DNA from: a virus
Reading direction: 5' to 3' (one strand)
Virus record (IMG/VR): IMGVR_UViG_3300035698_009459
Span: 1-30,951 of that record
DNA: 30,951 bases
Of this stretch, positions 6,122-14,240 are shown one piece after another. Positions within the stretch are counted from its first letter, which is position 1. Every line of letters begins with the position of its first letter. A program made the translations under genes and the position numbers. The notes beneath the pieces were generated by a model, which did not search any database, was not told the origin of the DNA, and saw only the letters and a program-made list of their open reading frames with translations.

Positions 6122-6177
6122 TAAGCATCCTTACTTAAAGTCTGACTTAGTTTCGTCACGCGTAACTAACTAATAGA

Positions 6178-6210
6178 GTACACATTCTGTACACATTCTG
6201 TACACATTTA
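6178..6210. repeat. Three 11-bp tandem repeats, probable operator
   Basis: Three copies of GTACACATTCT (the last ends in TTA) at 6178, 6189 and 6200, exactly one helical turn apart. They create palindromic TGTACA cores at the junctions, and another TGTACA lies at about 6228. The array is between the terminase and early operons, beside the rightward promoter and in the leader of the late unit, so a regulator binding there could affect both directions. Confidence 0.6.
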
Positions 6211-6262
6211 ATCTCGTTTGTACATAGCTTCGTTAATGATTACTGTTTGCTTGCTGTTTGTA

Positions 6263-6291
6263 TTGACAAAGAATAAGCACTTAGGTATAAT
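6263..6291 (+). promoter_or_regulatory. Consensus sigma-70 promoter for the early rightward operon
   Basis: TTGACA at 6263-6268 and TATAAT at 6286-6291 are separated by exactly 17 bp: both hexamers match the bacterial vegetative consensus perfectly. The first gene begins 40 bp further on, after a GGAG ribosome site. With no phage RNA polymerase gene in the genome, this is the obvious entry point for the host enzyme. Confidence 0.9.
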
Positions 6292-6330
6292 ACTCTCACT
6301 GACACAAACACACAAACGGAGTAACTAGAT

Positions 6331-7159: not shown

Positions 7160-7301
7160 CTTTGCGATGCTGACTACCTTAGCGATGACGTGTTATGCGT
7201 TCTCTGTATTGAGCGAGTTGCATGACGAGATAGTTAATTACAGGGTTTTGGAACGAAACACGTATACGATACCTTTTTACGAATATGAGGGAGTTAGGTG
7301 A
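7131..7301 (+). CDS. Small membrane or exported peptide, 56 residues
   Basis: GTG start at 7131 with a TGGAG site, overlapping the preceding gene by 29 nt. Its stop overlaps the start of the SSB gene (TGATG), so translation is linked to SSB. The N-terminal 22 residues (MSKITSLMISFAMLTTLAMT) form a signal-peptide-like or single-span segment; the rest is a charged tail ending EYEGVR. No family recognised. The tight packing upstream of SSB is the main support for a real gene. Confidence 0.5.
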   Translation: MSKITSLMISFAMLTTLAMTCYAFSVLSELHDEIVNYRVLERNTYTIPFYEYEGVR

Positions 7302-7699
7302 TGCTTAGCAAAACAATTTTGATTGGCAATTTGGGTAAAGATCCAGAAGTTAAGGCGTTTGAGAGTGGGACTAGCTGCACTAGGTTCTCATTAGCGACTA
7401 GTGAGCGATTCAAGGACAAGTCTGGTGACCAGAAGACTGTTACGGAGTGGCACAATATCACTGCTTGGGGAAAGCTTGGCGAGATATGCGCTAAGTATTT
7501 GAAGAAGGGCAGTAAGGTTTATATTGAGGGCACTATCAAGTCACGTAAGTACGAGGTCCAAGGTGTAGAGCGCACAGCTATAGAGATTGTAGCTAAAGAA
7601 ATGAGCATGTTGGATAGCAAGCAAGAGTCTGCATTAGTACGAAAAGCAGAGCCTGTATTGCCGGCCGCTACGCCTTTTGATGATGAGATACCCTTTTAA
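7301..7699 (+). CDS. ssb: Single-stranded DNA-binding protein
   Basis: 132 residues from ATG 7301 (a GTG at 7298 is the alternative). It has the OB-fold pattern of bacterial SSB: ILIGNLGKDPEVKAFESG at the N-terminus, RFSLATSERF, then TEWHNITAWGKLGEICAKYL and VYIEGTIKSRKYE. The last residues, DDEIPF, are the acidic tip through which SSB recruits replication and repair proteins. Size is close to a minimal SSB with a short linker. It should coat displaced strands at the fork and support the ERF/YqaJ recombination system. It is the only core replication protein I can identify in the genome. Confidence 0.95.
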   Translation: MLSKTILIGNLGKDPEVKAFESGTSCTRFSLATSERFKDKSGDQKTVTEWHNITAWGKLGEICAKYLKKGSKVYIEGTIKSRKYEVQGVERTAIEIVAKEMSMLDSKQESALVRKAEPVLPAATPFDDEIPF

Positions 7700-8061: not shown

Positions 8062-8244
8062 ATGTCGAACCCTTTAGATGATGCACATGAAAAGTTAAAC
8101 AAAGCACTAGCTGTAGTTAAACTGCTAAAATCTGAGGGTTGCGACAACGTTAAAATGATTCAAGCCCGAAAAGTAGTGGCAACCACCCTAGACGAACTAC
8201 TCGAAGTGGCAGCTAAGCAAGATACCGATCTAAAGCCTCTATAG
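8062..8244 (+). CDS. Small helical protein, 60 residues
   Basis: Last gene of the rightward early operon, with an AGGAT ribosome site. It is almost entirely amphipathic helix (DDAHEKLNKALAVVKLLKSE, then KMIQARKVVATTLDELLEVA), suggesting a small helical bundle or dimer. The N-terminal heptad pattern resembles the first helix of the preceding 108-residue protein, so the two may pair. Its 3' end overlaps the convergent VRR-NUC gene by 32 bp. Confidence 0.5.
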   Translation: MSNPLDDAHEKLNKALAVVKLLKSEGCDNVKMIQARKVVATTLDELLEVAAKQDTDLKPL

Positions 8245-8575
8245 CCTCAAGACTACCAAAGCAAACCTCAACCCTGTAGCCCTGCTCCTTCAGTCTACTA
8301 ATCATATCTATCTGATTCTTAGAAAGTCTCCCTGGCGGCTTTCCTAGCTCCGCTGGCGACTTCATTTCAATGAATAATCCAGGATAAACGAGAGTAGGGA
8401 CCGCCAACATTAAATCAGGCACTCCAGAAGTAACACCCTCGGCTTTTAGCTTGACAGCTTCCCTAACATCCCTAGAGCCACCATTAGGTATAGAAAATAA
8501 TAGCTTCTCGTATCTAGGGTATGCTAACTTGAAATATTGAATCAAAGCTTTTTGGTGCTTATGTTCCCTGCTCAT
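8213..8575 (-). CDS. VRR-NUC domain nuclease
   Basis: 120 residues, a stand-alone VRR-NUC domain of the PD-(D/E)XK superfamily. Key residues: the N-terminal HQKALIQYF helix, the SIPNGG turn at 28-33, Asp54 in GVPDLML, Glu70-x-Lys72 in FIEMK, and the LSKNQ helix start near 84-88. Viral single-domain VRR-NUC proteins are known or proposed to cut branched DNA, acting like Holliday-junction resolvases. It is the only leftward gene in its neighbourhood, convergent with the SSB operon and divergent from the 66-residue gene, right next to the probable origin. It may resolve replication and recombination intermediates before packaging. Confidence 0.88.
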   Translation of the reverse strand: MSREHKHQKALIQYFKLAYPRYEKLLFSIPNGGSRDVREAVKLKAEGVTSGVPDLMLAVPTLVYPGLFIEMKSPAELGKPPGRLSKNQIDMISRLKEQGYRVEVCFGSLEAIEALDRYLA

Positions 8576-8594: not shown

Positions 8595-8795
8595 ATGTGG
8601 CATACAATAGTACAAGCCGCGACCGCTATCATCTCCCTATTCTCCAAATGTAGACAGTCAAACGATGACATAGAGGGCGTTAATATCGAACTCAATAATA
8701 GCTATAACACAGCCATCACCATAAGTAGACGCCAAGACAAAAAACAGGCCAGCATCGAAGAAACAAAACCCTACAGATTTATATATACCGTCTAA
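8595..8795 (+). CDS. Small hypothetical protein beside the origin
   Basis: 66 residues with an excellent GGAGG ribosome site, divergent from VRR-NUC with only 19 bp between the start codons. The N-terminus (MWHTIVQAATAIISLFSKC) is hydrophobic enough for one membrane helix or a signal; the remainder is polar with many Asn and Lys. It ends where the repeat-rich origin region begins. Function unknown. Confidence 0.5.
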   Translation: MWHTIVQAATAIISLFSKCRQSNDDIEGVNIELNNSYNTAITISRRQDKKQASIEETKPYRFIYTV

Positions 8796-8869
8796 CGCAC
8801 AATACGCACAATACGCATTATTTAAAAACATGTAAGCAACGAGCCTTCAAAACCATACAAAACCCCTTT

Positions 8870-8979
8870 GATCGAGTAATGATCGAGTAATGATCGAGTA
8901 ATGATCGAGTAATGATCGAGTAATGATCGAGTAATGATCGAGTAATGATCGAGCACTGGTCGAGTACTGGTCGAGTAAG
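8870..8979. repeat. Iteron array: ten 11-bp GATC repeats
   Basis: Seven perfect tandem copies of GATCGAGTAAT start at 8870, 8881, 8892, 8903, 8914, 8925 and 8936. Three diverged copies follow (GATCGAGCACT, GGTCGAGTACT, GGTCGAGTAAG), ending at 8979. The period equals one helical turn, so a bound initiator would line up on one face of the DNA. Eight copies carry GATC, the Dam methylation site, which could tie activity to the methylation state if the host has Dam. Confidence 0.9.
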
Positions 8980-8981
8980 CG

Positions 8982-9120
8982 CCCCTAAAGTCTGACTTAT
9001 CGTGACTCAGACCCCTACTCAGACCCCAAACTCAGCTTTGTACCCCCTAAAACCCAGCTTTGTACCCCCTAAAGTCTGACTTATCGTGACTCAGACCCTA
9101 CTCAGACCCCTACTCAGACC
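8982..9120. repeat. Duplicated compound repeat with AAGTCTGACTT palindrome
   Basis: A block of about 33 bp, starting CCCCTAAAGTCTGACTTATC and continuing GTGACTCAGACCC, occurs at 8982 and again at 9066. Each copy is followed by one or two TACTCAGACCC units. Between them CAGCTTTGTACCCCCTAAA is itself doubled. The core AAGTCTGACTT (8988-8998 and 9072-9082) is an odd palindrome that also occurs in the terminase leader at 6138-6148. Confidence 0.8.
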
Positions 9121-9144
9121 CTAACACCTGGGTCGACAATGGGT

Positions 9145-9150
9145 TATAAT
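9145..9150 (+). promoter_or_regulatory. Possible -10 box of a small origin transcript
   Basis: TATAAT is flanked by the inverted pair CAATG (9137-9141) and CATTG (9151-9155). No good -35 box is seen 16-18 bp upstream. Thirty bases downstream is an intrinsic terminator, so a short untranslated RNA of roughly 55-65 nt could be made here, as at some plasmid origins. Confidence 0.35.
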
Positions 9151-9179
9151 CATTGCCCTATAGTCTTTTTTTCGTTTTG

Positions 9180-9213
9180 CTCCGCTGGTTGCCTCCGGCG
9201 GGGTTATTCTTTT
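9180..9213 (+). terminator. Intrinsic terminator inside the origin region
   Basis: CTCCGC (9180-9185) pairs with GCGGGG (9198-9203), with an inner TGG/CC pairing. It is followed on the plus strand by TTATTCTTTT. It would end any rightward transcript started near 9150, before the second half of the repeats. Confidence 0.6.
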
Positions 9214-9229
9214 ACTAAATTATTCGCCC

Positions 9230-9301
9230 AGTTTCGACCCAGTTTTGTCCCAGTTTTGTCCCAGTTTCGACACGTTTCGACACGTTTCGACACGTTTGCA
9301 C
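9230..9301. repeat. Seven 10-11-bp GTTT-type tandem repeats
   Basis: Four 11-bp units (AGTTTCGACCC, AGTTTTGTCCC twice, AGTTTCGACAC), then two 10-bp GTTTCGACAC units and a final GTTTGCAC. The change from an 11-bp to a 10-bp period points to separate rounds of expansion. The helical-pitch spacing again suits stacked protein binding. Confidence 0.85.
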
Positions 9302-9507
9302 TAATCCCTGAAATTACCTGCTACACTGGTCGATGGCCTACCACATCTATCACCAATTGTAACGGTTTTTTGGGTGCCACCCTAAAACACATCTAGGTGC
9401 CACCCTTTAATTCGACTAAGCATTATCATTTAAGCTGCCCATTACATCGTCCACATTGTCCACATTGTCCAAACTTTTCGAAAATTGTTACGGGGCATCT
9501 CCTCACG

Positions 9508-9666
9508 AAGTTAAGGAGATTTTAGCGATTTCTCACAAAGTTAAGGGGATTTTGGGTGATTCTCAGAAAGTTAAGAGGATTTTGAGACAATTCTGAGAAA
9601 GTTAAGAGGATTTTTAAAAAGTTCAGGGGATTTCGGGTCATCTCCTAAAAAAGTTAAGGGGATGCT
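9508..9666. repeat. Six AAGTTAAGGGGAT-type repeats, mostly about 30 bp apart
   Basis: Units with core AAGTTAAG (one AAGTTCAG) begin at 9508, 9538, 9568, 9599, 9619 and 9651. Each is followed by R-G-G/A-GAT and most by a T-run, and preceded by TCTC or TCTG. Spacings of 30, 30, 31, 20 and 32 bp are close to multiples of the helical turn, and the T-runs in phase suggest curved DNA. Confidence 0.85.
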
Positions 9667-9698
9667 ATTTTATAAATTGCCTGTTATGCTGGTCGATG

Positions 9699-9748
9699 CT
9701 TTAAGAACCTTAAGGGACTTTAAGCTACTTTAAGGGACTTTAAGGACA
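9699..9748. repeat. Five phased TTAAG boxes
   Basis: TTAAG occurs at 9701, 9710, 9720, 9730 and 9740 inside ACTTTAAGG units, a 10-bp period. This closes the repeat region just before the leftward 131-residue gene ends. Confidence 0.8.
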
Positions 9749-9783
9749 TTGTTGCACTAAACCCTGCTACACTGGTTAATGCT

Positions 9784-10179
9784 CTACCATAAGTCCTTTC
9801 TTTCATGTTCCATTATCATCTTCTCATCTAGTTTACTTATCGCTTCTTTCTTCTTAGTTTCTGATTGTTGCTCGTCGTACGCCTTTACTTTCTCGCGCAT
9901 AGCTGTTGTATCGTTGCTGTAGCCGTCGGCTCGTCGTCTTCCGTCATAAGTAGTATCCCAAGGGGCTTGCTTGCTTTCATTGGCTGGGGGGCTTGTAGGG
10001 GTGTTTGTTGGTCTAAGCTCCTCCATGTATGGAGGCTTCATATTTGGGTTTGCGTGCATCTCTATCAGCTCTGCTAAATATTGATAGTTTCTATTGATGA
10101 CAATGAGCGCTTCGGCAGGGGATATAGTGAACTTTTGCGGATTAAAAGACTGGGTGCAGTGTTTGGGTCCGTTTTCCAT
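9784..10179 (-). CDS. Hypothetical protein next to the origin, 131 residues
   Basis: Last gene of the leftward early block, ending at the edge of the repeat region. The ATG at 10179 follows AAGGATGTGAC. The N-terminal half contains a helical segment (SPAEALIVINRNYQYLAELI); then a Pro/Thr/Ser-rich linker (RPTNTPTSPPANES) and a strongly charged helical tail (KKKEAISKLDEKMIMEHERK). This layout of a folded N-terminus, flexible linker and charged tail, beside the iterons, makes it one candidate for an origin-binding factor. No family is recognised and that role is speculative. Confidence 0.55.
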   Translation of the reverse strand: MENGPKHCTQSFNPQKFTISPAEALIVINRNYQYLAELIEMHANPNMKPPYMEELRPTNTPTSPPANESKQAPWDTTYDGRRRADGYSNDTTAMREKVKAYDEQQSETKKKEAISKLDEKMIMEHERKDLW

Positions 10180-10204: not shown

Positions 10205-10453
10205 TTAGTACTTTATCATTGCCTGTATTGTAACAAGCTTACTTAACTCGTTGGTCATGAAGTGCGGAGGCCCGAGTGGCTCCCATCCTTTCGATATAGC
10301 TAAGCTTACTTTCTTAACGAATAATTCACTAGTATGGTTACCTGTCGATATAGCTAAGTTTACTTTCTTAACGAATAATTCACTAGTATGGTTACCTGTA
10401 GTCTTACTAAGATAGCCTTTAATGATGGTATATCCTGTTACTTGTCTTTCCAT
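10205..10453 (-). CDS. DUF1737-like small protein with an internal duplication
   Basis: 82 residues. Ends resemble the small DUF1737 family: YTIIKGY near the start and KGWEPLGPPHF after the helix. The middle holds two tandem copies of an 18-residue unit, TGNHTSELFVKKVNLAIS and the same with S for N at one site, encoded by a 54-bp tandem DNA repeat. Removing one copy would give a normal 64-residue family member, so the second copy is a recent insertion that lengthens the helix region. It has an AAAGG ribosome site. Function of the family is unknown. Confidence 0.6.
   Translation of the reverse strand: MERQVTGYTIIKGYLSKTTGNHTSELFVKKVNLAISTGNHTSELFVKKVSLAISKGWEPLGPPHFMTNELSKLVTIQAMIKY
10291..10398. 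repeat. 54-bp in-frame tandem duplication
   Basis: 10291-10344 and 10345-10398 are two adjacent 54-bp copies differing at one base (C at 10305 versus T at 10359). The duplication keeps the reading frame of the 82-residue gene and must be recent. Confidence 0.95.
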
Positions 10454-10816: not shown

Positions 10817-11320
10817 CTCTCCACCTTCACTATCAATGTCTGCTTAACCTGTCCCTAAATCTCTATTACATATTCCTTTATGTGGAAACTATAATGCTCA
10901 CTAACCTGCCAGTCAAACCAAGTAAACATCTAAAGTCTAACTGCCTAAACACAAACTAAAACCTAATATATTACTGAAACCCTGAGTAAGCGGAAGCTTT
11001 TAGGCATAGTCCAGCCAGGGGCAGTAGTAAATACCACCCTTGACTAGACCAGCTAACTAATATGAAACCCTTCGGTCACGTATAGCTCGGCGGCATTCCT
11101 GAGTTTTCACCATTGTTACATGGCTGCACTGGCCCCCAGGAGGCGTTAAAGCGGGGATCTTAAGGATTAAGTCACTTCACAACCCTAATTCGGAGAAAGT
11201 AAGCCCGTCGATCTGCCACTATATACACAGTCCTTGCCCGTCACATTGTGCGCCCTTCTGTGTGACAATAACCCTTGGTCAGAACGTAGATACCCCGCTA
11301 GACCCCAAGAGGCATGCTAA
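10817..11320. ncRNA. Gene-free stretch with candidate structured RNA
   Basis: About 500 bp with no credible gene but several pairings. TAGTC/GACTA arms with inner AGGG/CCCT lie around 11007-11046. CCAT/ATGG lies near 11111-11124. GTCACAT (11240-11246) pairs with GTGTGAC (11260-11266). On the plus strand a TATAAT at 10890-10895, with a weak TTACAT 18 bp upstream, could start a transcript that runs to the hairpin terminator at 11675-11705, giving about 0.8 kb of RNA. Read leftward, the same DNA would be a long leader of the 116-residue gene. A 24-residue leftward ORF at 10929-10855 lacks a good ribosome site. Orientation and existence of an RNA are unproven. Confidence 0.3.
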
Positions 11321-11491
11321 TCAAATAAGCACACCCCCTGAGCCATTAAGGCAAAGGGACAAAGAAAGGAAACAAACAGCACGGTTCATTAAGACATCCT
11401 TGTCTTTCACACTAAATGCATAACCCTCAGATCCGTTGAGAGCATCTTTACCTGATAAGGCATTGAACTTAGAGATTTTAGCGTGTATCAT
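11321..11491 (-). CDS. Small hypothetical protein, 56 residues
   Basis: The ATG at 11491 follows GGGAG and overlaps the end of the 42-residue peptide gene by 14 nt, so the two look translationally coupled. The first 38 residues (MIHAKISKFNALSGKDALNG and on through EGYAFSVKDKDVLMNRA) look like an ordinary soluble protein. The last 18 are hydrophobic and Gly-rich (CFLSLSLCLNGSGGVLI), which could be a membrane tail or the remnant of a longer gene cut by a frameshift. No family recognised. Confidence 0.4.
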   Translation of the reverse strand: MIHAKISKFNALSGKDALNGSEGYAFSVKDKDVLMNRAVCFLSLSLCLNGSGGVLI

Positions 11492-11606
11492 TGTGGCTGA
11501 TCTCCCTTTTCTGCCTTGTTTTTGTGGTTAGGGGCGGGTTGACCTTCCCTTTCTTTGCAGTTAGGGGTGGATTGAACTTATCTTTCTTAGTCGTAAGGTT
11601 GTTCAT
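11478..11606 (-). CDS. Repeat-containing basic peptide, 42 residues
   Basis: Starts at ATG 11606 with an AAGAGAA site. The core is two tandem copies of a basic motif, KKDKFNPPLTA and KKGKVNPPLTT, followed by a basic tail (RQKREIS). The nucleotide repeat (about 11525-11590) keeps protein-level similarity while silent bases differ, which favours coding over chance. Very basic with a PPL turn, it might bind nucleic acid or a host protein. Unknown family. A structured plus-strand RNA over the same DNA is the competing reading. Confidence 0.4.
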   Translation of the reverse strand: MNNLTTKKDKFNPPLTAKKGKVNPPLTTKTRQKREISHNDTR

Positions 11607-11640
11607 ATTGATAGTAATTCTCTTTGGTTAGATGAATTCA

Positions 11641-11671
11641 GAGCATATGCCTTCGTACGGCCTCTATGCTC
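11641..11671. other. Hairpin upstream of terminator
   Basis: GAGCATA (11641-11647) pairs with TATGCTC (11665-11671), with inner GCC/GGC pairing around TTCGTAC. It stands 4 bp before the next, longer hairpin. The pair could be the 3' end of a rightward RNA or the folded 5' leader of the leftward peptide genes. Confidence 0.6.
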
Positions 11672-11674
11672 ACT

Positions 11675-11705
11675 CTCCGACTGATGCACTTAGTGTCAGT
11701 CGGAG
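11675..11705 (+). terminator. Strong hairpin, probable rightward terminator
   Basis: CTCCGACTGA (11675-11684) pairs perfectly with TCAGTCGGAG (11696-11705), with inner CAC-TTA-GTG. The plus-strand side is followed by TTTAATTTAAT, a weak but usable T-rich tail; the minus-strand side has none. There is no rightward gene upstream, so it would terminate a non-coding transcript. Confidence 0.55.
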
Positions 11706-11784
11706 TTTAATTTAATAAGCCAGCTTATCGCTGCAACTCACTTAATTGACAAAACACCTTAACATTAATCCGTCTGTATCTCTA

Positions 11785-11945
11785 CGCCCGTACGGGACGA
11801 TTTCGTATACCTCACACTTAAGATCATCCCGAACGGGACGATTTAACCATCAGAACTCAACCCCACCATAGAATCATCCCGAACGGGACGATTTGGCCTT
11901 CAGAACCCAACACCACGCCACAATGATCCCGATCGGGGTGATTTT
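11785..11945. repeat. Array of four regularly spaced palindromes
   Basis: Four near-palindromes with core TCCCGAACGGGA or a variant are centred at about 11791, 11832, 11882 and 11932, so spaced 41, 50 and 50 bp. The best copies read ATCATCCCGAACGGGACGAT plus TT. The intervening 28 bp are also related (both contain CAGAAC, then CAAC), so this is a diverged 50-bp tandem repeat. Dimeric-protein binding sites, or serial small RNA hairpins, are the likeliest functions. A winged-helix regulator is encoded just to the right. Confidence 0.75.
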
Positions 11946-12014
11946 ACAATGCGTATCAACTTGGGTAGAATAACAACGTGTGTTGAGTATATTCATATAT
12001 AGTATCTCCCTTTA

Positions 12015-12045
12015 CCCTGACAGCGTCGCAACTGTCAGGGCTTTT
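12015..12045 (+). terminator. Hairpin terminator next to the regulator gene
   Basis: CCCTGACAG (12015-12023) pairs perfectly with CTGTCAGGG (12032-12040), followed on the plus strand by CTTTT. It lies 13 bp beyond the stop of the leftward regulator gene. The minus-strand side lacks a T-run, so it acts mainly on rightward transcription, again where no rightward gene exists. Confidence 0.6.
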
Positions 12046-12052
12046 AATCCCT

Positions 12053-12367
12053 CTAAAACTTATCAAATAAAATCCTATACCTATTAGCGCCAGCCGTTCC
12101 CTCAGCCCTAATAAGACCAGCTTCGCGTAAACTTCTTATAGTATGAGATACAGTAAACATGCTCACCTCTAACTCCTCACTAACATGAACCATGTTAATT
12201 ATGTCCTCACCACCATACATCTTCTTAAGAAATAAATTAACTACACTCATCTCTAAATCAGACGGCACTCTAATATCGCCGTTTCTTGTAGCAACTATCT
12301 CACTCTTCGCAATAATAGACTCTATATATTCTAACGGGTACTTATCTTCCTGTGCGCTCATTTCCAT
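12053..12367 (-). CDS. Winged-helix transcription regulator
   Basis: 104 residues. Residues 55-84 form a helix-turn-helix (EDIINMVHVSEELEVSMFTV, then SHTIRSLREAGLI) followed by a short wing ending RYRILF, the layout of MarR- or replication-initiator-type winged helices. The N-terminal 50 residues are helical and could dimerise. The gene diverges from the recombination operon across 78 bp that holds a doubled GACTC and a TTGACT box, so it may repress that operon and itself. The palindrome array on its other side is a second candidate target. With no integrase present, a true lysogeny role is uncertain. ATG 12367 follows AAAGGA. Confidence 0.7.
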   Translation of the reverse strand: MEMSAQEDKYPLEYIESIIAKSEIVATRNGDIRVPSDLEMSVVNLFLKKMYGGEDIINMVHVSEELEVSMFTVSHTIRSLREAGLIRAEGTAGANRYRILFDKF

Positions 12368-12807: not shown

Positions 12808-13407
12808 ATGGAAAGAAGCGAATCAATAAACGAGTTAGGGGCGAGCTTGTCGCTATTCACTGCTGAGGTAGAGAACGCGAGTAAGGACAAGTCTGGTTAC
12901 GGTTACAAGTATGCGGACCTTGGTCAGATACTAACGATGGTTAGGCCTTTGCTTTCTAAGTATGGTTTATCTATCACTCAGCATCCTAGTGTAGCTGACA
13001 CTTCCTCTGTGTCCGTAGAGACGATGATTCTGCATAAGTCTGGCCAATATATGTCTAGCACGTTAACGATGCCTAGCTGCGTTGGTAAGGGCATGAATGC
13101 GGCTCAGGGCGTGGGTTCTGTTATCACTTACGCTAGGCGGTATGCGCTGGCGGCTATTCTTGGGATTACTCAGGAGGATGATGATGCCTCAGGAAAATCT
13201 ACAGCTGAAGCTAAAGCTAAGCCCGTGCTGATTAGCGCTGAACAGAAAGAGAAACTTGTCTCGATAATGTTCAGTATAGAGTTTGACGTAAGGCGCATTA
13301 CATCCTTCTACCAAATTAACAGCATTGACGACCTGCCGGCGACTCACTACGCTGCAACTCTAATGAGCTTAACGAAGAAACAGGAGGAGCATAATGCCAA
13401 GACCTAA
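12808..13407 (+). CDS. erf: ERF-family single-strand annealing protein
   Basis: 199 residues. Clear ERF-family core: SGYGYKYADLGQILTMVRPL, then LSKYGLSITQHPS, then the signature run MNAAQGVGSVITYARRYALA and AILGITQEDDDA. ERF proteins, as in phage P22, form rings that anneal complementary single strands, circularising or joining phage DNA during replication. The C-terminal 60 residues are a lysine-rich linker and a small helical tail. It should work with the YqaJ exonuclease two genes on, which exposes single strands, and with the SSB. Overlaps the next gene by 14 nt. Confidence 0.93.
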   Translation: MERSESINELGASLSLFTAEVENASKDKSGYGYKYADLGQILTMVRPLLSKYGLSITQHPSVADTSSVSVETMILHKSGQYMSSTLTMPSCVGKGMNAAQGVGSVITYARRYALAAILGITQEDDDASGKSTAEAKAKPVLISAEQKEKLVSIMFSIEFDVRRITSFYQINSIDDLPATHYAATLMSLTKKQEEHNAKT

Positions 13408-13681
13408 AACTTATACCTATAGAGACCGTGGATCGCAAGCCAGAGCATCAGCAATGATGTCGCCCGAGCAGCTTGATGAGTTCAGGGAGCTGGCAGTGAC
13501 ACACAACGTAACTATATCGTCCCTGTTTCGTACGTGCATCCTGTCATTCTCAGAAAGAAGCCCCAAGGTTCAAGCTAACTATATCGTGAAAGAGCGTCGG
13601 ATACAGTGCCAAACCCAAGGTCTGAAAAAGCAAGACTGGAGAAAAGAAATTGAAGATTCTAAGCTGCCTACAAAGAAGTGA
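13394..13681 (+). CDS. Small basic protein between ERF and exonuclease
   Basis: 95 residues with an AGGAGG ribosome site inside the ERF end. The N-terminus is basic (PRPKTYTYRDRGSQARA). Residues 21-51 (MMSPEQLDEFRELAVTHNVT, then ISSLFRTCILSF) look like the helix pair of a ribbon-helix-helix fold; the tail is again basic. A DNA-binding partner of the recombinases is a fair guess. It overlaps the exonuclease gene by 32 nt. Confidence 0.5.
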   Translation: MPRPKTYTYRDRGSQARASAMMSPEQLDEFRELAVTHNVTISSLFRTCILSFSERSPKVQANYIVKERRIQCQTQGLKKQDWRKEIEDSKLPTKK

Positions 13682-14240
13682 CGAATGGTTTAAAGTTAGA
13701 TCTAAATGCATAACCGCCAGCAACGCGTCAAGACTGTTAACGATGCCAAAGTGTCAGGACTTGGCTAGAGAGATGGTGGCCGAGCTCTGGGGCGGCCGAC
13801 AGGAGTCATACGCTAGCTCTGCTATGCAGTGGGGCATAGACCACGAAGATGATGCTATTGCTTGGTACTGGCTACAAACAAAGTACGACATTAAGCATGT
13901 CGGGTTCTGCATACATGATGATGAGCCTAGGTGGGGAGCCTCTCCGGATGGGCTTTGCAATGATGACGGATTAGTAGAGGTTAAGTGTCCTAGCACCAAG
14001 AATCACTTACTTCATATAGAAAAAGGGCCGCCAGCAAATTACATGGCGCAAATGCAATGGCAGTTGCTGGTAACCGGCAGGGATTGGTGTGACTTTGTTA
14101 GTTACGACCCGCGTGCACCAATCGAGCATCAACTATATGTACAGCGCGTGCTACGCGATGAATATATGATAGAGAACATGGCCGACGGCGCTAAATGGGT
14201 GATGTCATATATTGATGCTATGATGCCTTCTGCAATTTAA
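13650..14240 (+). CDS. YqaJ-type viral recombination exonuclease
   Basis: 196 residues of the lambda-exonuclease-like PD-(D/E)XK fold. QRSDEWFKVRSKCITASNAS at residues 8-27 is the family N-terminal signature. Further motifs: WGIDHEDDA (61-69), Asp100 in GASPDG, the catalytic Glu110-Val-Lys112, and the AQMQWQ helix at 133-138. It should chew one strand of duplex ends to provide single strands for the ERF annealase. Start: a TTG at 13650 with GGAG 8 nt upstream is needed to keep the signature, overlapping the previous gene. Confidence 0.92.
   Translation: MKILSCLQRSDEWFKVRSKCITASNASRLLTMPKCQDLAREMVAELWGGRQESYASSAMQWGIDHEDDAIAWYWLQTKYDIKHVGFCIHDDEPRWGASPDGLCNDDGLVEVKCPSTKNHLLHIEKGPPANYMAQMQWQLLVTGRDWCDFVSYDPRAPIEHQLYVQRVLRDEYMIENMADGAKWVMSYIDAMMPSAI

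Follow-up and report, generated by a model that had tools for sequence, protein, structure and literature searches.

We propose that a gene-free gap of 988 bp (positions 8796-9783) in the genome of a polymerase-less HTVC010P-type podophage is probably a composite replication origin that serves the host replisome. An origin had been read into this region in a preliminary description of the DNA. That remains the best-supported reading, and the analysis found neither a replicative polymerase, primase or helicase nor a clear initiator, but two inferences drawn in that description overreach, as set out below.

Affiliation of the phage

The window (the whole stretch of DNA that was analysed, 30,951 nucleotides) is the complete circular record IMGVR_UViG_3300035698_009459; its ends are identical over 127 bp, giving a genome of ca. 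30,824 bp (30.8 kb). By its terminase and portal the phage is a distant member of the broad assemblage of small HTVC010P-type podophages, its best phage matches reaching 30-36% amino-acid identity. Its terminase, portal and tail proteins are homologous to those of HTVC010P-type podophages (Ubiqueviridae and relatives) and, as in that group, no DNA polymerase was found, although terminase identity is only 33-40%. The nearest relative found, contig G001 (IMGVR_UViG_3300031211_000340), has homologues at 30-51% amino-acid identity (Erf, 44%; exonuclease, 51%; TerL, 39%; portal, 44%), tail and capsid-region proteins among them. A search for close relatives using the portal returned none.

Repeat content of the gap

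The region singled out in the preliminary description coincides exactly with one gene-free gap between converging genes (Table 1). Both flanking genes end at the gap, which therefore cannot be their promoter. Copies of 8-mers repeated within 60 bp cover 48% of it, compared with 1.2% on average and at most 8.1% in 500 Markov-resampled controls, and with 17% in the next highest 988-bp stretch of the genome. Tandem Repeats Finder detected nine tandem arrays within 1 kb, the highest number among 231 sequences totalling 2.4 Mb (the runner-up had seven). We conclude that the repeats are real and very unlikely to be due to chance. A similarity search of the gap DNA against phage records gave no match.

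Table 1. Positions of repeat families, other sites and replication-related genes in the window.
Feature	Position	Strand	Remarks
SSB	7298-7699		Replication-related gene
VRR-NUC/Holliday-junction-type nuclease	8213-8575		PHROGs nuclease match; the VRR-NUC name is our own reading
Tandem 9-mer ACGCACAAT, x2.6, includes 22-bp CGCACAATACGCACAATACGCA	8795-8817	+	Left edge of gap
Gene-free gap, proposed composite replication origin	8796-9783	.	Between converging ORF 8595-8795 (+) and ORF 9784-10179 (-)
Ten 11-bp units TGATCGAGTAA	8869-8978	+	Seven identical, three variant
33-bp exact repeat, copy 1, contains palindrome AAGTCTGACTT	8982-9014	+
ACTCAGACCC(C)(T) units, 11-12 bp, five copies	9005-9123	+
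22-bp AAACYCAGCTTTGTACCCCCTA pair	9028-9073	+	Within 9005-9123
33-bp exact repeat, copy 2	9066-9098	+
Sigma-70-like promoter, 10/12, TATAAT -10	9121-9150	+	Such sites in the area no commoner than in shuffles
Terminator-like hairpin, 10-bp stem, then T-rich tail	9179-9204	+	z -3.1
CCCAGTTTYGWC/GTTTCGACAC units, 11 then 10 bp	9223-9297	+
Diverged long direct repeat, left copy (GCACTAATCCCTG...CTACACTGGTCGATGGCCTACCA)	9289-9343	+
GGGTGCCACCC (9372-9382) and AGGTGCCACCC (9395-9405), 23 bp apart	9372-9405	.
9-bp ACATTGTCC, x3.1	9444-9471	+
Six AAGTTAAGRGGAT units ca. 30 bp apart	9502-9663	+	Core fixed, spacer variable; proposed unwinding element
Five CTTTAAG/CCTTAAG boxes, 9-10 bp apart	9699-9745	+
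Diverged long direct repeat, right copy	9745-9789	+
104-aa winged-helix-like protein	12053-12367	-	Weak matches only; possible phage initiator or regulator
Erf	12808-13407		Replication-related gene
YqaJ/RecE-type exonuclease	13650-14240		Replication-related gene

All six repeat families named in the preliminary description are present, with small corrections. The AAGTCTGACTT block described there as duplicated lies within the exact 33-bp duplication, the 10-11-bp units are the CCCAGTTTYGWC/GTTTCGACAC copies, and the five TTAAG boxes said to recur at 10 bp are the CTTTAAG/CCTTAAG boxes (9699-9744). The six units placed about 30 bp apart were recovered as AAGTT(A/C)AG at 9508, 9538, 9568, 9599, 9619 and 9651 (spacings of 30, 30, 31, 20 and 32 bp). 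Ten 11-bp units had been called GATC iterons; ten units are there, but GATC occurs in only eight, the last two reading GGTC. One member of the palindrome pair, GGGTGCCACCC, stands, whereas the second GGTGCCACC copy reads AGGTGCCACCC and is not a perfect 11-bp palindrome. Missed in that description were ACGCACAAT, ACATTGTCC, the ACTCAGACCCCT repeats (11-12 bp period), the 22-bp pair and the diverged long direct repeat.

The autocorrelation of the gap has peaks at lags 10, 11, 22, 30, 33, 44 and 55. Removal of the GATC array leaves peaks at lags 10, 11, 20, 30 and 31 (z 3.5-5.9) and a raised value at lag 9 (z 3.1). Spacings of 10-11 bp and their multiples thus dominate; the earlier statement that nearly all periods match the helical turn is slightly too strong, given the raised lag 9 and the misfit of the 9-bp and 12-bp families. 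Among the six AAGTT(A/C)AG copies the core differs at a single position, in contrast to the variable spacers, a pattern suggestive of binding sites under selection. Duplex stability in the gap is lowest over an 80-bp stretch (9541-9620) that falls inside the AAGTTAAG family and ranks 35th among 3083 genome windows, a modest minimum, as other weak stretches exist in genes.

It is conceivable that the repeats are mostly neutral expansions, generated by slippage during replication or by annealing through Erf in a gap free of constraint. Seven of the ten GATC units are identical, which indicates that this array expanded recently, and there is an in-frame tandem duplication of 54 bp (10287-10399) in a nearby gene, ORF 10205-10453. 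However, the gap holds at least nine different units, several of them old and diverged with fixed cores, and their spacing is helical; moreover, GATC-containing repeats have been kept in a genome that purges GATC. We consider neutral expansion an improbable account of the gap.

GATC array and genome-wide GATC avoidance

Outside the array, GATC occurs 47 times versus 98 expected (ratio 0.48), the lowest ratio of all 4-bp palindromes in the window, while inside it eight GATCs follow each other at exactly 11 bp, one per helical turn. In G001, where GATC is likewise the most strongly avoided 4-bp palindrome, the depletion is ca. five-fold (16 versus 88 expected, ratio 0.18), and Vibrio phage ZCVPP1 has 32 GATCs versus 124 expected. 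The genome-wide depletion in the window and G001 hints at a Dam-related or GATC-restricting host. A search of IMG/VR with the exact GATC unit pair gave no match.

The 11- and 12-mers of Vibrio cholerae oriII each contain a GATC, and methylation controls binding of the initiator RctB, which it improves (PMC2865523). Judged by spacing and GATC content, the gap resembles oriII in having tandem short GATC-bearing repeats, spaced by approximately one helical turn, together with other repeat types. It differs in that no RctB-like protein was found in the phage (none was named among window proteins by the PHROGs, Pfam and NCBIfam scans, in which RctB itself was not a query), and methylation dependence here is putative. 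By analogy with oriII, a phased array set against genome-wide avoidance suggests methylation-dependent control, and the host may be a Dam-bearing one. A further proposal, that of a methylation-sensing phage origin in which the phased GATC array and eight or more other arrays would let an initiator-less phage assemble host machinery in a way unlike plasmid and chromosome origins, is in our judgement doubtful.

The concentration of GATCs on one helix face of a single array, with depletion elsewhere, would also fit a decoy whose role is to titrate Dam or SeqA of the host, or a GATC-cutting enzyme, and which is not part of an origin. Such a decoy would account for a single array out of nine, eight sites are a small number for titration, and a GATC-cutting enzyme would select against an array of this kind; we regard the decoy as very unlikely.

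Comparison with known origins

As in iteron origins, tandem direct repeats in the gap occupy a short non-coding region and are accompanied by a low-stability, AT-rich element that itself carries repeats (9541-9620); as in oriII-like origins, repeats contain GATC (8/10 units). Against an origin, no cognate initiator gene lies beside the arrays. GC skew was also considered as origin evidence and rejected, since its changes track gene direction and are therefore uninformative.

The preliminary description held that known iteron origins usually carry one or two repeat families. This is too narrow a view given RK2 oriV, where iterons, DnaA boxes and 13-mers occur together (PMC4980987), and Vibrio oriII, with its 11-mers, 12-mers, 14-mer, and DnaA and IHF sites (PMC2865523). 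The window shares with iteron plasmid origins such as RK2 oriV the arrays of direct repeats, a stretch of low stability and possible DnaA sites (PMC4980987). Those plasmids have iterons of 17-22 bp and encode a winged-helix Rep, whereas units in the window are 9-11 and ca. 30 bp long, with no adjacent Rep gene.

Replication genes and a possible course of initiation

Scans with PHROGs, Pfam and NCBIfam found no replicative polymerase, primase or helicase among window proteins (several small ORFs received no assignment) and no clear initiator. This bears out the earlier observation that the phage has neither a polymerase nor a recognised initiator. The conclusion drawn from it there, that host proteins may be recruited in a new way, goes too far, because absence of a polymerase is normal in HTVC010P-type phages, and published work holds them to depend on the polymerases of the host (PMC10504331). 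No cognate winged-helix Rep adjoins the repeats, the flanking proteins matching no Rep family. A putative winged-helix protein of 104 aa, with weak matches only, is encoded ca. 2.3 kb from the repeats; no sequence relation to winged-helix-like proteins of G001 was found, and structure models of this protein and of a 132-aa protein were too low in confidence to use.

From this anatomy we infer the following order of steps. The arrays would serve as binding sites for an initiator complex, made up either of a small phage DNA-binding protein (the 104-aa protein, for example) or of host DnaA and other host proteins. Binding along one helix face would bend the DNA and melt the weak AAGTTAAG/TTAAG stretch at ca. 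9500-9745, allowing host helicase and polymerase III to enter. Phage SSB, Erf and exonuclease could then take over and form concatemers in a recombination-dependent manner. Initiation would be tied to Dam methylation through the helically phased GATC array.

A perfect DnaA box, TTATCCACA, is absent from the window gap. The ACATTGTCC array contains box-like TCGTCCACA, TTGTCCACA and TTGTCCAAA, with 2, 1 and 2 mismatches to it, respectively, the best being TTGTCCACA at 9456; all three belong to a single tandem repeat and may be due to chance. Non-coding stretches of relatives contain 4 DnaA boxes versus 1.1 expected, two of them from duplicate contigs, and 8 of 150 permuted motifs matched that enrichment. 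Since the enrichment in relatives is weak and the box in the window has one mismatch, involvement of host DnaA is possible only.

Gene-free gaps in relatives and possible positions of the terminus

Gaps of 350-1240 bp are frequent in a set of 80 terminase relatives plus six reference phages, but their repeat cover does not exceed 0.23. The closest analogue is in L195, an HTVC010P-type phage, where a repeat-packed 879-bp gap (L195:2978-3856) just before the terminase genes holds two copies of a 19-bp palindrome, numerous TATGTATGAATT units and a perfect DnaA box; this gap is itself a candidate origin. The terminal gap of HTVC010P likewise contains a perfect DnaA box. These boxes in repeat-bearing gaps near the terminase lend support to the origin reading of the window gap. 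A repeat-bearing gene-free gap is thus shared with L195 and, weakly, with HTVC010P. The window differs in its far higher repeat density and in that its gap lies past the early operon, whereas theirs adjoin the terminase. A composite repeat gap also occurs in L124, an Erf-bearing phage with a helicase, ca. 1 kb before an initiator-like gene (L124:2090-2430; ACCTGTACAT x2.8, CTGTACTAGGG and CTTAAAGGGC repeats).

Because the comparable gaps of HTVC010P and L195 adjoin terminase genes, the strongest rival explanation is that the gap is a packaging or terminal-repeat zone, whose terminal repeat collapsed in the circular assembly. In this view the repeats would flank the concatemer junction, as short repeats do in T7-like phages. 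The circular 127-bp overlap is expected for a collapsed terminal repeat and equally for a permuted genome. Terminal repeats have been reported in HTVC010P-group phages (PMC10504331). However, 2.7 kb of DNA with the early operon separate the window gap from the small terminase gene, and 6122-6330 is by position a better terminus candidate. On balance, we find a packaging zone unlikely.

Other sites in the window were noted. An 11-bp repeat (GTACACATTCT, x2.8; 6178-6291) beside a perfect 12/12 sigma-70 promoter (6263-6291) sits in the gap from which the small terminase gene and the early operon diverge, and may be a regulatory site or a genome terminus. A second long stretch with little coding (10817-12052, ca. 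1.2 kb) holds two terminator-like hairpins and, at 11787-11937, four CCCGNNCGGG palindromes, spaced by 41, 50 and 50 bp and each part of a longer ATCRTCCCGNNCGGGAYGAT-like inverted repeat. These palindromes are the only ones in the genome (0.13 expected) and look like operators or a centromere-like site.

The gap could also be a regulatory or insulating zone between converging operons, containing terminators, regulator sites and perhaps a short RNA that starts at the promoter-like site and ends at 9204. The hairpin that would end such an RNA is stable, with the promoter-like site just before it. Yet a terminator needs tens of bases and not 988 with nine arrays, promoter- and terminator-like sites in the area are no commoner than in shuffles, and the whole gap has no excess single-strand structure (z -0.5) and no Rfam family match. 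An RNA explanation was rejected on the latter two grounds, and a regulatory zone in general seems to us a poor prospect. Together with neutral expansion and the decoy, it explains less of the gap's anatomy.

Occurrence of the repeats elsewhere

The exact 22-mer CGCACAATACGCACAATACGCA was found in four IMG/VR contigs, three from the nearest-relative clade and L156, and five times in 84,980 prokaryote genomes. In L156, it lies just after a helix-turn-helix-like protein gene and is accompanied by a perfect DnaA box and a second, inverted copy; in L162 it is inside a phage Erf/SSB/exonuclease module; and several copies occupy a repeat-bearing gap of the phage-like contig L159. BLAST searches of plasmids and phages with the 9-mer gave mostly chance-level matches, a useful exception being Pseudoalteromonas phage PY6 (L243), where a near-match adjoins a primase-helicase gene. 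In bacterial contigs L160 and L161 the element is away from replication genes, and since these two misfit the pattern, its association with replication modules is suggestive only. The tandem 9-mer ACGCACAAT as such recurs in unrelated phages and bacteria (L156, L158, L159, L160, L161, L162 and PY6), often beside replication or recombination genes; a literature search found no paper that names it.

The preliminary description called for a comparison of the repeats with those of related phages. This succeeded in part: the nearest relative, G001, shares the 22-bp element, but only that one, and on an incomplete contig where the homologous gap may be missing. Besides this ACGCACAAT element and the protein homologues given above, G001 has in common with the window a strong avoidance of GATC; it differs in that its 22-bp element is inside a small ORF and that its incomplete contig has no dense repeat gap. 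The AAGTTAAG pair pattern had a single match in IMG/VR, a coding repeat of an unrelated phage, and no gap family other than the 22-bp element was found elsewhere.

Implications

HTVC010P-type phages, which start DNA copying without a polymerase of their own, are among the most abundant in the sea. The named arrays of this compact candidate origin open the start of replication in this group to testing, and the phased array in a GATC-poor genome leads to a specific prediction, namely that initiation would depend on host Dam methylation.
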